From NCBI GenBank assembly GCA_027315385.1, contig DAHUYD010000036.1, positions 1 to 40,702 of the forward strand: a stretch of 40,702 nucleotides of DNA, given 5' to 3'. Source of the DNA: Acidobacterium sp. (GTDB lineage Bacteria; Acidobacteriota; Terriglobia; Terriglobales; Acidobacteriaceae). Shown here one piece after another: positions 15,151 through 36,138 of this stretch (its first letter is position 1; every line of letters begins with the position of its first letter). The notes beneath the pieces are model-generated. The model saw only the letters and a program-made list of their open reading frames with translations. It was not told the DNA's origin and ran no database searches. The translations under genes were made by a program, and so were the position numbers.

Positions 15151-15638
15151 ACTCGTCCCTCGATACCTATCAGGCCAAATGAGCAACGGTGTTAGTGATG
15201 CGGGGGCAGTGGGCTGGATTCAATTTCAGTGCGCGCGAGAAAGCCTTGAATCGAGTCTTCACATTTCCTGTAACGCCGGGAGCGGAGGGATCGTTTCAGA
15301 AGATATGACCTGTCATCCCGCTGCTGATGAGAAGGACCAGGTCGGCGCAGCTTTCGCGCCTGGGGAAGTCCCCGTCCCGAGGCGCGGAACGGGGACCGCG
15401 AATCGGCCAACCGGAATCGTTGGCGGGCTCCTGCCCATCGTGTAGTTCCGCATGACGCCGTTCCGCTTCAGCAGAACTCATGCAGGGGAAACGGCAAAAA
15501 CCCTGCGCCACGCCGCGGCAGTCGCTTGATTCGTTGGATGCGCCGGGATCGCCCAGCAGTAACTGGCAGCTATTCGCCCCGCATAATAGCCCTGCTGGAC
15601 GAGAGCTTTGCAGTTCTGCGCCGCGGGGCTGTCAATGG
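15151..15638. other. 488-base intergenic region
   Basis: No convincing gene. It holds an inverted repeat GTCCCCGT...ACGGGGAC at 15368-15396, without a T tract, so a terminator is not supported. A 61-codon minus-strand ORF (15478-15663) overlaps the methyltransferase end and has no family resemblance I can see. Confidence 0.4.
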
Positions 15639-32299: not shown

Positions 32300-32653
32300 T
32301 TACGCTCTCGGTCGAGCGTCCTCCGGACGGAAGAAGCGAATCGCATCCACATCGGACGTGGCGATCAGGCCCTCATTCACCATTTCGTCCAGATAGGGAA
32401 CCAGTTTAGCAATCTGTTCCTGCCTGTCGATGACGCTTAGCATGATCGGTGCGTCCTGCGACAACTTCCAGTGGCTGGAATGGCGGATTCGCGTGCTCGT
32501 GCCGTATCCCTCGATGCCCCGATAGACGATAACCCCCAGGATCTCCAGATCTCGACACTTCGCAACAATGGCTTCGTGCAGAGGTTTCCCCTTCCACTTG
32601 TCTCTCTCTCCAAAATGAATTTGCAGCATGCGAGCCCGAAATTCCTCTTTCAT
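32300..32653 (-). CDS. DUF190 protein (fluoride-operon member)
   Basis: About 117 residues, a single DUF190 domain, rather like a PII-type alpha/beta fold. Recognisable pieces are MLQIHFGERDKWKGKPLHEA, GVIVYRGIEGYG, and the C-terminal ...DEMVNEGLIATSDVDAIRFF strand. The start at 32653 has AGGGAGC upstream; ATG at 32698 is less likely. It lies ten bases after the tandem DUF190 gene and is the last gene of the crcB operon. The family is repeatedly found next to crcB (recollection) but its biochemical role is not established. Confidence 0.88.
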   Translation of the reverse strand: MKEEFRARMLQIHFGERDKWKGKPLHEAIVAKCRDLEILGVIVYRGIEGYGTSTRIRHSSHWKLSQDAPIMLSVIDRQEQIAKLVPYLDEMVNEGLIATSDVDAIRFFRPEDARPRA

Positions 32654-32663
32654 AACAGCTCCC

Positions 32664-33404
32664 TTACGGTGTGGCGTCTCCCGAACTGAAAGCTTCACCG
32701 GTCTCGATTGGGCGGTGAGCGTATTTGATGATTTCGACGTCGGACAGGACTACGAGCCCCTCCTGCACCATCTGTTCGACGATCGGCAGGAACTCCCGCA
32801 ACTTGGCTTCCGTATCGATGGCGGAGAGCATGATGGAATAGTCGCGGCTCAGGTGAAAGGGCTTGTCCCTGTGCATGCGCCGATGGGCGCCGTATCCCAG
32901 AATGCCGCGATAGACGGTGACTCCGGCGACATCGTTCGCCCGCATGGCCTCCACCAGAGCCTGATGGAGCGGCTTGTCGCGCCAGCGATCCGACTCGCCG
33001 ATGTAGATCCGCATTATGCGGGCTTTGCCCTCGATCTTCTGGTGCGCGGGAAGTGGAAGAGTTTTCGCACTGGACCGCTGGGCCGGCTTCGCCACCGTCG
33101 TTTCGTGAAGCTCGATCATCCCTGTACCGGCCAGATCCTCGAGCTTGCCGAGAAGTTCCTCCACGCGCTCCCGCGACTCGACGAATTCGATCTTTATAGG
33201 CAGATGATCCGAGATGTCGACGGTCGAGGAGGTGTGCATGTGGCGATCCGCGCCAAATCCGGCGACACCCTTCAGCACTGTTGCGCCCGAAACACCCCGG
33301 TAAAACAGGAAATCCAGAATGGAGGAGTAGGTCGGGACCCCGTGACGCGTCGATCCCTCGCTCAGATAAATGGAAACCTTCACTGCCTTGCCCGTATTCA
33401 ACAT
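32664..33404 (-). CDS. Tandem DUF190 protein (two domains fused)
   Basis: About 246 residues with two DUF190 domains joined by a Lys/Pro-rich linker. Domain one (~1-105) includes VSIYLSEGSTRHGVPTYSSI, FLFYRGVSGATVLKGVAGFG and DLAGTGMIELHETTV. Domain two (~125-235) includes MRIYIGESDRWRDKPLHQAL, GVTVYRGILGYG and MVQEGLVVLSDVEII. Domain two is closer to the downstream single-domain protein than domain one is. The start at 33404 follows AAGGAG, which overlaps the stop of the preceding small ORF. Soluble, cytoplasmic; likely an accessory factor in fluoride resistance. Confidence 0.87.
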   Translation of the reverse strand: MLNTGKAVKVSIYLSEGSTRHGVPTYSSILDFLFYRGVSGATVLKGVAGFGADRHMHTSSTVDISDHLPIKIEFVESRERVEELLGKLEDLAGTGMIELHETTVAKPAQRSSAKTLPLPAHQKIEGKARIMRIYIGESDRWRDKPLHQALVEAMRANDVAGVTVYRGILGYGAHRRMHRDKPFHLSRDYSIMLSAIDTEAKLREFLPIVEQMVQEGLVVLSDVEIIKYAHRPIETGEAFSSGDATP

Positions 33405-33417
33405 CGCGATCTTCTCC

Positions 33418-33597
33418 TTACTGGCGGAGGCCCTGCGGGACAGTTAAATACTCGGCGCGCCCCCGCGGCTTGAAACCGTGGGGTATGCGGAGCGTACCGC
33501 GGCTCGGCGCCCTCGCGCGGACGGCAAAACCTGCATCGGGTTCGTGCTGCATCCTAAGAATCGAGTGATACACCGTGAGATGGCTGGGCTTTCTCAT
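33418..33597 (-). CDS. 59-codon ORF coupled between crcB and the DUF190 genes
   Basis: A short frame begins at 33597 with ATG overlapping the crcB stop (ATGA), has GGAG eight bases upstream inside crcB, and ends at 33418 with TAA that merges into the AAGGAG site of the tandem DUF190 gene. That exact fit on both sides argues it is translated. The product is basic (many Arg/Lys/His; MRKPSHLTVYHSILRMQH at the start, AEYLTVPQGLRQ at the end), with no membrane helix, and is not a family I know. It may be a real small protein or a ribosome-loading device for the genes downstream. Confidence 0.45.
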   Translation of the reverse strand: MRKPSHLTVYHSILRMQHEPDAGFAVRARAPSRGTLRIPHGFKPRGRAEYLTVPQGLRQ

Positions 33598-33971
33598 CCA
33601 AGCATCTCCGCAAGCAGAATGCCGCACCATACCGCCACCAGGCCCAGGACCATGCTGCTGAAGGCATAAGCCGCTGCAAGCGAGAAGGCGCCCGACCGCA
33701 ACTCCGCCAGCATCTCCCATTCATACGTGGAGAATGTGCTGTACGCCCCCACAAAACCCACAGGGATCAGATAGCGCCATGCGGGACCCAGTCCGGTGCG
33801 CCGGCTCAGGAACGTGAGCGAGAAACCAATGATCGCGCATGCGGTCATGTTAATGACAAAGGTGCCGTACGGAAATCTCGTTCCCATCCGGCCGGTTACG
33901 GTCACTCCCACCCAATACCGTGCCAGCGCGCCGAGTGCGCCACCAACCGCGATGTAAAGATATTTCTGCAA
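33594..33971 (-). CDS. crcB: Fluoride channel CrcB/Fluc
   Basis: About 125 residues with four membrane helices. Family marks: YIAVGGALGALARYW at the N-terminus, GTFVINMTACAIIGF (pore Asn), and GFVGAYSTFSTYEWE (pore Phe/Ser-Thr-Phe-Ser-Thr box). It exports fluoride as a dual-topology dimer in the inner membrane. The start was set at TTG 33971 because GGAGGAG sits nine bases upstream and the protein then begins MQKYLYI, as usual in the family; a GTG at 33989 would place the Shine-Dalgarno inside the gene. A fluoride riboswitch and a promoter lie ~210-320 bases upstream. It leads an operon with a small ORF and two DUF190 genes. Confidence 0.93.
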   Translation of the reverse strand: MQKYLYIAVGGALGALARYWVGVTVTGRMGTRFPYGTFVINMTACAIIGFSLTFLSRRTGLGPAWRYLIPVGFVGAYSTFSTYEWEMLAELRSGAFSLAAAYAFSSMVLGLVAVWCGILLAEMLG

Positions 33972-34181
33972 AGTCCCATTCTCCTCCACGCGAATTTGGC
34001 CGTCTTCTCGCTACCTCAGAAGCTACTGCCGCCTTCCAGACGCGGAGCCTGCCGAAATCGCGGTCCATCGCCGGAACGCCTGCATGAACACACCAAAGCC
34101 ATGGGCATCATGAACTCAGGTTCCAGATTGTCTTTGGGATTCCCCGCTACAGATATGGCTCCGTAACAGGGGCTATCCCTG

Positions 34182-34250
34182 TCAGGAGTCATCATCTGTC
34201 CGGCTCAAAAGAGGAGGAGGACAGCGGTTAAGGTGAACTCCGTCACCTAC
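34182..34250 (-). promoter_or_regulatory. Fluoride riboswitch (crcB motif)
   Basis: On the minus strand the core starts GGTGACGGAGTTCACC (34247-34232), continues TTAACCGC, then a TGTCC/GGACA stem with a variable loop, and closes with GATGATGACTCCTG (~34196-34183). These match the conserved crcB-motif blocks GG.GA.GG.GUUC.CC, UAACCGC and UGAUG.CUCCU. A hairpin ACAGGG-ATAGC-CCCTGT (~34166-34182) follows at once, without a U tract, so control by RNA structure is likely but the expression platform is unclear. It should turn on crcB and the DUF190 genes when fluoride is bound. Confidence 0.93.
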
Positions 34251-34264
34251 CAGTCTTCAACTTC

Positions 34265-34293
34265 TTTCTATGCCTGGTCTCGCAATATGTCAA
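34265..34293 (-). promoter_or_regulatory. Sigma70-type promoter of the fluoride operon
   Basis: On the minus strand TTGACA (34293-34288, perfect -35) and TAGAAA (34270-34265, -10 with 4 of 6 matches) are spaced by exactly 17 bases. Transcription would start near 34258, about ten bases before the riboswitch core. Confidence 0.75.
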
Positions 34294-34707
34294 CAGCACA
34301 CGGCAACTCGTGCTCTTCTAAAAGTTCCGGAGACGCCGCACTTCATGGCCGATGGCCTCCTGAGTGGCCTTTCGCCCCTGTCCCCGTTCAGTGTGCGAGC
34401 TGACGGCGGGGGTGAGGTGCGACTTGAATCAGACACCGCCGGTGGCCGTGGTGAACGGCCTGCGGCGCTGACTGCTGAGCCAGGTACCGGCGCCCATAAT
34501 CAGCGCGGATGCCCGGTATCAGTAATTTTTATAGGGGAAAATCTTTATGGCCGGGGCGATACGCTGATGAGGAATCGCAACACGCCTCAGGATGCGAGTG
34601 CACCAGTGCCGGTATGCCCCGACGCTGGGAGACGCTTAGGGCGAAGCACGGCCGCGACGGATGCGGCTGAACTATCAGAACCAAATCCATTCCACTCGGG
34701 GAGAAGC
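34294..34707 (+). other. Long leader / upstream region of glutamine synthetase
   Basis: About 410 bases between the fluoride promoter and glnA. The reading frame of glnA stays open back to 34270, but the ~146 extra codons look non-protein-like and glnA has a strong start at 34708. A hairpin formed by GGTACCGG (34483-34490) and CCGGTATC (34513-34520) is followed by AGTAATTTTTATA, which could be a leader attenuator or simply contain a -10 element. I see no known riboswitch here and no clear sigma54 site. Confidence 0.4.
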
Positions 34708-36138
34708 ATGTCGACTGAATATCGCAACTTTCTGGCGCTGTCGTACGAGGAACTGGAAGAACTGAACCTGAAGGCTAAAGAGCAGCGGCGGAAGCGCGTG
34801 GCTACGGAAGAAATCAAGGAAGAGCGACTGAAGCTTCTGACCGATCAGAAGAGTATCAAGGCGGTCACAGTGCTCTTCAGCGATCTCGAAGGCCGGCTGC
34901 ACATGCTCGACTACGACAAAAAATTCCTGCTCAAGTCGTACGAGAACCTTACATTCGACGGCTCGTCGATTCGCGGCTTTACGGCTCAGAAGGAGAGCGA
35001 TCTGCGCCTGGGCATCGACTGGAGCGCCTTCTACTTTGCGCCCGCTGACGTCTTCGGAGCAGGCAAGGTGCTGGTCTTCGGCGATGTGATCGACAAGGAC
35101 GGCACCCCCTACGGCGGCGACACGCGGGGCCTGCTTAAGACCTTCGCGAAGCAGCAGTACGACAAATGCAGGTACACACTGAACGCCGCCAACGAGATCG
35201 AGGGCTTCCTTTTCGCGGGCGTGGATGCGGAGCGGAATTTCCCGACCACCGGCAAGTTCGACTACGTGAACACTGGCGGCTACTATCACTCGCTGCCCGG
35301 CGATCCGTTGCGCACCTTCATCGACACCACGGCGGAAGTGCAGCGGGCCATGGGCTTCGAGAACGAGAAGGATCACCCCGAAGTGGCGCCTTCGCAGTTT
35401 GAGATCAACTACAGCTACGGCGAGGTAGTTGCCGCTGCCGACCAGATTCAGCTCTACAAGCTCATCTGCCGCCAGGCGGCGACCAGGATGGGCCTGACTG
35501 CGTCCTTCCTGCCGAAGCCGGTGGTGGGCGTCAACGGCAGCGGCATGCATACCAACGTCTCCATCAGCAAAGACGGCAAGAACCTCTTCTGGGATCCCAC
35601 GGGGCAGGAAAAGCTGTCGTCCACCGGATGGGAGTTCGTCGACCGCATTCTGACCCACGGCAACGACATCTGCCTGCTGCTGAACTCCAGCGTGAACTCC
35701 TACCGCCGTCTCGATCCGCACTTCGAAGCCCCCAACCAGATCAAGGCATCCGCGGTCGATCGCGGTTCTATGGTCCGCATTCCCATCGGCAACGAGCGCT
35801 CCATGCGCGTCGAAGTCCGCTCAGTCGCCCCGGACTCGAACCCGTACTTAGTGATGCTGGCCGTCTTCCAGACCGGCATCGAAGGCCAGACCTCCAGCGT
35901 TGCGAACCTTCGCCAGGCTGAGCGCTACCTGCCCGACAACATCTACACGGCGATTGAGGACTTCCGCGCCGCCGAGTGGACGACCCGGTTGCTGGGCGAG
36001 GATGTGAAGGGCCGCTATGCGGACCTGAAGCAGGCCTCGGCGGATCGCTGCCCGCGCTTGCTCGGCACGTTTGTGAAACCCTCTGAAGTGCAGTTCCACC
36101 ATGAAGTCTATAACCAGTTCCTCTGGAACCAGTTCTAG
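34708..36138 (+). CDS. glnA: Glutamine synthetase, type I
   Basis: About 476 residues. It has the beta-grasp N-terminus with VLFSDLEGRLHMLDYD, the Asp-rich LTFDGSSIRGF, the catalytic core NGSGMHTNVSISKDGKN, then LNSSVNSYRRLDPHFEAPNQ and RSVAPDSNPYLVMLAVF. It makes glutamine from glutamate, ammonia and ATP in the cytosol. Start 34708 has GGGGAG five bases before. The C-terminal segment that carries the adenylylation Tyr in GSI-beta (NLYDLP) reads PDNIYTAIEDFR here, so the site is altered. No glnB or glnD is adjacent. Confidence 0.93.
   Translation: MSTEYRNFLALSYEELEELNLKAKEQRRKRVATEEIKEERLKLLTDQKSIKAVTVLFSDLEGRLHMLDYDKKFLLKSYENLTFDGSSIRGFTAQKESDLRLGIDWSAFYFAPADVFGAGKVLVFGDVIDKDGTPYGGDTRGLLKTFAKQQYDKCRYTLNAANEIEGFLFAGVDAERNFPTTGKFDYVNTGGYYHSLPGDPLRTFIDTTAEVQRAMGFENEKDHPEVAPSQFEINYSYGEVVAAADQIQLYKLICRQAATRMGLTASFLPKPVVGVNGSGMHTNVSISKDGKNLFWDPTGQEKLSSTGWEFVDRILTHGNDICLLLNSSVNSYRRLDPHFEAPNQIKASAVDRGSMVRIPIGNERSMRVEVRSVAPDSNPYLVMLAVFQTGIEGQTSSVANLRQAERYLPDNIYTAIEDFRAAEWTTRLLGEDVKGRYADLKQASADRCPRLLGTFVKPSEVQFHHEVYNQFLWNQF

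Follow-up and report, generated by a model that had tools for sequence, protein, structure and literature searches.

We propose that the operon described here is a fluoride-inducible export operon in which the CrcB channel would be co-produced with PII-like regulators of its own, the DUF190 proteins encoded downstream of it. We infer the chain as a whole, including the regulation of CrcB by DUF190, and give it an even chance of being right; riboswitch-controlled expression and a single transcript, taken by themselves, are very probable. The operon lies in a stretch of 40,702 nucleotides (the window) from the genome of a soil bacterium of the Terriglobales (Acidobacteriota), available as a 3.75-Mb assembly of 194 contigs.

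Organization and transcription of the operon

The elements follow each other on the minus strand in the order promoter, fluoride riboswitch, crcB, a 59-codon ORF, a tandem DUF190 gene and a single DUF190 gene (Table 1). A preliminary description of this DNA had placed the operon at 32300-34293; these bounds are correct, and the promoter, the riboswitch, crcB and the DUF190 genes were all found inside them. According to profile and covariance-model searches, the riboswitch, crcB and the DUF190 domains of this operon are the sole ones in the genome. The crcB stop codon overlaps the start of the ORF (ATGA), the gap between the ORF and the tandem DUF190 gene is 13 nt, and that between the two DUF190 genes is 10 nt. 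Because the starts overlap or are tightly spaced, the four reading frames probably share one transcript, and a sequence scan found no terminator-like site within the operon region.

Table 1. Features of the fluoride operon (positions in the window)
Feature	Position	Strand	Evidence
-35 box TTGACA	34288..34293	-	Sequence; same box, 16-18 nt spacing, upstream of the aptamer in most of 32 relatives
-10 box TAGAAA, 17-nt spacer	34265..34270	-	Sequence; TAGAAA also in congener G112 (L159), TACAAA/TGTAAT-type elsewhere
Fluoride riboswitch aptamer, RF01734	34176..34256	-	cmscan 36.7 bits, above gathering score 34
Expression-platform hairpin, putative OFF state	34149..34199	-	MFE fold; core hairpin in 28/28 relatives
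Remnant of dynamin-like GTPase gene 3' end, now crcB leader	33992..34074	-	blastn; junction alignment
crcB, fluoride channel/exporter Fluc, 125 aa	33594..33971	-	PF02537, TIGR00494; dN/dS 0.05 vs L065
59-codon ORF, in-frame remnant of ~190-aa Cys-rich gene	33418..33597	-	Intact gene in L016, L065, 30+ loci
Tandem DUF190, two PII-like domains, 246 aa	32664..33404	-	PF02641 2.3e-60; PF00543 (P-II) 1.8e-10; dN/dS 0.08 vs L065
Single DUF190, 117 aa	32300..32653	-	PF02641 2.3e-30; dN/dS 0.16 vs L065

The promoter agrees with the consensus at 10 of 12 positions, and its -10 box ends 8 nt before the riboswitch. The A at position 6 of the -10 box caused a strict promoter scan to miss it. About 28 of the 32 related loci with the same aptamer type have TTGACA (or one mismatch) and a -10-like box at a near-identical position, a placement that is kept despite mostly different surrounding sequence, and the best promoter score in these relatives averages 9.7/12 vs 7.1 (SD 0.8) in shuffles. 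The perfect -35 box with a 17-base spacer reported earlier is borne out, and comparative support for the predicted promoter is good.

Downstream of the operon lies a convergent P-type ATPase gene, and upstream of it a divergent glutamine synthetase gene (34270-36138, plus strand), which thereby adjoins genes for PII-like proteins; its open frame exceeds the likely coding region, with a probable start at about 34709. Elsewhere in the window, a CyVA-1 RNA (RF02965) was found at 15437-15514 on the minus strand (58.9 bits).

The fluoride riboswitch and its expression platform

A covariance-model search with the Rfam fluoride riboswitch, named as a check in the preliminary description, recovered the aptamer with E-values of 1e-6 over the window and 2.2e-8 over the genome, as the single match there. 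Its margin over the gathering score is modest; relatives reach 48.8 bits at the same position before crcB. Right after the aptamer we found a hairpin that pairs the aptamer GAUGACUCC strand with a downstream GGAG-type copy. It can form in all 28 aligned leaders, with energies of -20 to -39 kcal/mol, and when it is imposed on them 92.8% of cells are paired vs 29-53% with the partners slid. Its covariation is weak (19/500 column shuffles reach its score) because the region is conserved. The hairpin uses the 3' strand of the aptamer, so that this expression platform and the aptamer are mutually exclusive; as a competitor of the fluoride-bound fold, it would be expected to represent the OFF state. 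A sequence scan found no U-tract or intrinsic terminator after it, so that the hairpin may act either by transcription termination or by translational block. Altogether, these predictions support the earlier claim of a crcB-DUF190 operon under a fluoride riboswitch. A possible leader ORF (34195-34016) would start inside the aptamer and runs into the GTPase gene remnant.

CrcB and the DUF190 proteins

The preliminary description had assigned crcB and three DUF190 domains in two genes, and the profile searches agree. CrcB scores 90.1 bits (1.4e-25) with PF02537 and 100.9 bits with TIGR00494, both above the cut-off, and there are three PF02641 matches, each covering positions 2-96 or 2-97 of the 97 in the profile. 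The preferred start of crcB is TTG 33971, behind GGAGGAG, a longer form from GTG 33989 being less likely; that of the single DUF190 gene is ATG 32653, 5 nt after AAGGGAG. As the genome holds only one crcB gene, a CrcB homodimer is expected.

The tandem DUF190 protein also passes the Pfam cut-off for the P-II family. Its AlphaFold model, of moderate quality (mean pLDDT 68; core mostly 70-90, T-loops below 50), consists of two beta-alpha-beta-beta-alpha-beta units. The best PDB matches to this model are the DUF190 structures PH1503 (2dcl) and TM0021 (1o51), the latter titled a putative PII-like signaling protein, and CPII, SbtB and GlnK rank lower. By profile and by model, the predicted fold of DUF190 is PII-like.

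PII proteins are trimers, and proteins of this type control transporters, as GlnK does AmtB. A plasmid protein of Mycobacterium branderi (L149, 2650-3729) carries three DUF190 domains in one chain; its gene adjoins enolase and has no crcB nearby. The tandem and the single gene of the operon likewise add up to three domains, and their products could by analogy form one three-domain ring. Three Terriglobales genomes carry the tandem DUF190 only, so such a ring would not be universal.

Association of crcB with DUF190

We then asked how widely the two genes are associated. An even draw of 199 Acidobacteriota genomes held CrcB in 104, DUF190 in 65 and both in 62, three of the 65 DUF190 genomes being without CrcB. 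In 58 of these 65 genomes crcB has a DUF190 domain no more than 1.6 kb away, and 58 of the 105 crcB genes have a DUF190 neighbour within that distance (odds ratio 45, Fisher p 2e-19, with genomes counted as independent and relatedness ignored). About 45% of these crcB genes are without such a neighbour, which indicates that CrcB can work without DUF190. Two further samples are unbiased towards DUF190: it adjoins crcB in 21 of 30 crcB-centred loci and is present in 15 of the 21 riboswitch-centred loci that carry crcB. Eighty close-relative loci picked by DUF190 were excluded from these frequencies. Seven relatives keep DUF190 with no crcB match beside it. In the relatives L066, L085, L089, L098 and L122, the DUF190 and Cys-rich genes are kept with no crcB match upstream.

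Plasmid-borne crcB-DUF190 pairs occur in Actinomycetota, Alphaproteobacteria, Cyanobacteriota, Bacillota and Bacteroidota, and four of seven such plasmid loci have a fluoride riboswitch. Riboswitches in DUF190 loci were sought with longer loci and a purpose-built model, since 1.5-kb flanks miss those farther upstream, and riboswitch, crcB and DUF190 were found together in Methylocystis, Chroococcidiopsis, Alicyclobacillus and Hymenobacter. In Streptomyces, DUF190 is flanked by two crcB genes with 4-nt overlaps. On other plasmids DUF190 adjoins metal RND or CDF exporters, without crcB. Because of these metal-exporter neighbours and of the three genomes without CrcB, DUF190 is not exclusively a CrcB partner. 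The preliminary description had this operon tie three DUF190 copies directly to fluoride control: the link through the riboswitch is supported by sequence, but to see it as special to this operon is too narrow, since the pairing is common in Acidobacteriota and also found in other phyla. Our search of the open-access PMC literature found no paper tying DUF190 to fluoride resistance, in keeping with the earlier remark that no such role is established.

Ancestry of the operon

The fullest island among the close relatives consists, in this order, of a riboswitch, enolase, a second riboswitch, dynamin-like GTPase A (about 700 aa, PF00350; gene dynA), crcB, a Cys-rich gene (product about 190 aa), tandem DUF190, single DUF190, dynamin-like GTPase B (gene dynB), a riboswitch and inorganic pyrophosphatase. 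The congener G112 carries this long form (L159, L160). Positions 34295-34083 of the window are 91.6% identical to the riboswitch leader before enolase in G112, and from 34074 the window matches the dynA 3' end of L065 and then crcB (by blastn, window 34074-33522 corresponds to L065 2303-2857, of which 2303-2383 is the dynA 3' end). Because the window switches from the G112 leader to the dynA 3' end, a deletion of about 3.5 kb would have placed the enolase-side riboswitch before crcB, with a misassembly at the joint possible in an assembly as fragmented as this one. Similarity also ends at the start of dynB (32288), and no relative of GTPase A was found elsewhere in the genome. The alignments thus support derivation of the operon, by shortening, from a larger fluoride island; enolase, most of dynA and most of the Cys-rich gene were deleted.

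The 59-codon ORF belongs to the same history. The preliminary description had listed it as an operon member in its own right; its presence is confirmed, but it aligns to the start, middle and end of the Cys-rich gene of relatives, which rules out an independent or new gene. In all 393 nt were lost, in frame, so that the start, an IPHG segment and the end are kept and the Cys motifs are gone. The remnant may still couple translation of crcB to that of DUF190.

The low dN/dS values against L065 (Table 1) indicate purifying selection on crcB and on each of the three DUF190 domains along these lineages, while other genes were lost. Since both were selected while the rest disappeared, the comparison favours crcB-DUF190 rather than DUF190-dynamin as the conserved core. 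A riboswitch lies within 450 nt of crcB, as here, in 18 of the 80 relatives fetched through DUF190. Acidipila rosea (L119) is a culturable relative that has the short form.

Dynamin-like GTPases (PF00350) lie in Terriglobales fluoride-riboswitch islands at L065 287-2383 and 4478-6232, at L131 1572-3674, 5746-7509 and 7588-9708, and at L159-L160 of G112. In 150 genomes, GTPase A has eight near-full-length relatives that score at least 850 bits, and each of them has a DUF190 gene at a distance of about 1 kb or less. We found no paper in the open-access PMC literature joining 'fluoride riboswitch' with 'dynamin'. The Cys-rich protein is all-helical (CPFC..CNFH..CDIC..CIPHG), intact at L016 528-1100, L065 2781-3353 and about 30 other loci; its gene overlaps the crcB stop and is repeatedly truncated or lost in relatives. 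Its Pfam matches, to DUF6062, are sub-threshold only, and a PDB fold search gave no match. At L065 7557-9026 (minus strand), a single frame combines a dynamin-like GTPase region with a Cys-rich one whose C..C/C..H motifs are similar, a possible link between the Cys-rich protein and the GTPases. Fluoride riboswitches number fourteen each in G130 (Acidicapsa dinghuensis) and G108, many of those of G130 lying in a single region (C12, 699-832 kb).

Proposed mechanism and alternative explanations

In the proposed mechanism, a sigma-70-type promoter would start transcription just upstream of the fluoride aptamer. In the absence of fluoride, the long conserved hairpin would capture the 3' half of the aptamer and the operon would be off; once Mg-fluoride is bound, the aptamer would hold its strand and the operon would be expressed, with crcB, the remnant ORF, tandem DUF190 and single DUF190 made together. 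The DUF190 proteins would form PII-type trimeric rings, perhaps of the tandem and the single chain, would act as sensors of an adenine nucleotide and/or an anion, and at the membrane would modulate CrcB in the way that GlnK modulates AmtB. We speculate further, and only tentatively, that Fluc channels are gated or tuned by dedicated three-domain DUF190 rings, here the tandem plus the single chain, and that in full islands the dynamin-like GTPases add a membrane-acting arm.

A different possibility, less than probable, is that DUF190 helps ion exporters and stress islands in general as a PII-like protein, travelling with crcB without direct contact with CrcB; it may sense the energy or nucleotide state and have other targets. 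Plasmid DUF190 genes adjoin CusA/CzcA RND, CDF and P-type ATPase genes, the M. branderi gene lies beside enolase without crcB, a DUF190 gene is included in the Caulobacter Zur-regulated czr/zntA cluster (PMC4176598), and DUF190 was proposed as a transport modulator in the acetoin/diol clusters of Pelobacter (PMC3543383), in neither of these two papers for fluoride. However, most DUF190 carriers of one phylum have crcB close by, and the overlapping crcB-DUF190-crcB arrangement of Streptomyces points to CrcB itself.

The two remaining alternatives concern this locus. It is very unlikely that the DUF190 trio is functionally part of the larger island, with its dynamin-like GTPases and Cys-rich protein, and is simply left over here. 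Full islands do place DUF190 between the crcB/Cys-rich genes and the second dynamin-like gene, and the window has lost other island members; yet all three DUF190 domains are intact and constrained though GTPase A is without a relative in the genome, the same short form occurs in the 18 relatives mentioned above, and a single DUF190 adjoining crcB without dynamin is common. That the riboswitch controls crcB alone, DUF190 being expressed independently of fluoride, we regard as highly improbable: the strict promoter scan does give one site near the 3' end of the operon (32430-32403), but at chance level, and the overlapping and closely spaced frames with no terminator-like site found in the region argue for common expression. 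Returning to joint control with a regulatory role for DUF190, the crcB-DUF190 pairing across several phyla suggests that the exporter itself may be regulated.

The DUF190 family is widespread; structures of it have been solved, and no function is established. Here the riboswitch points to fluoride as the signal and the gene neighbourhood to CrcB as the likely client, which makes directly testable both the role of DUF190 and the question of whether Fluc channels are regulated after synthesis. Moreover, a conserved core (riboswitch, crcB, DUF190) and dispensable island genes can be told apart by the deletion history, which also illustrates that a deletion can pass the riboswitch of one gene to another. 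If the dynamin-like GTPases of the full islands take part in fluoride resistance, they would add an unexpected arm to it.

Comparison with known systems

The fluoride operon of Enterobacter cloacae FRM (PMC5533749) and the riboswitch-associated enolase and pyrophosphatase genes reviewed in PMC11139923 comprise fluoride-response genes such as crcB, enolase and pyrophosphatase, which also occur in the full islands of the relatives; the latter review mentions no DUF family. With other RF01734-crcB operons the present one shares the aptamer consensus, the leader position and crcB downstream, but it differs in its long-P3 aptamer variant, its conserved hairpin platform without a U-tract and its co-operonic genes for PII-like proteins. 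Its DUF190 proteins belong to the same sequence family (DUF190/COG1993/UPF0166) as TM0021 (PDB 1o51) and PH1503 (PDB 2dcl) and share their fold by prediction, whereas here two domains are fused, a third is separate, and all stand behind a fluoride riboswitch. Finally, GlnK-AmtB, SbtB and CPII, several of which act on transporters, resemble this system in fold superfamily and in a gene that adjoins a transporter gene. The transporter here is the CrcB/Fluc channel, and a PII-type ligand, oligomer and contact are putative for this system.
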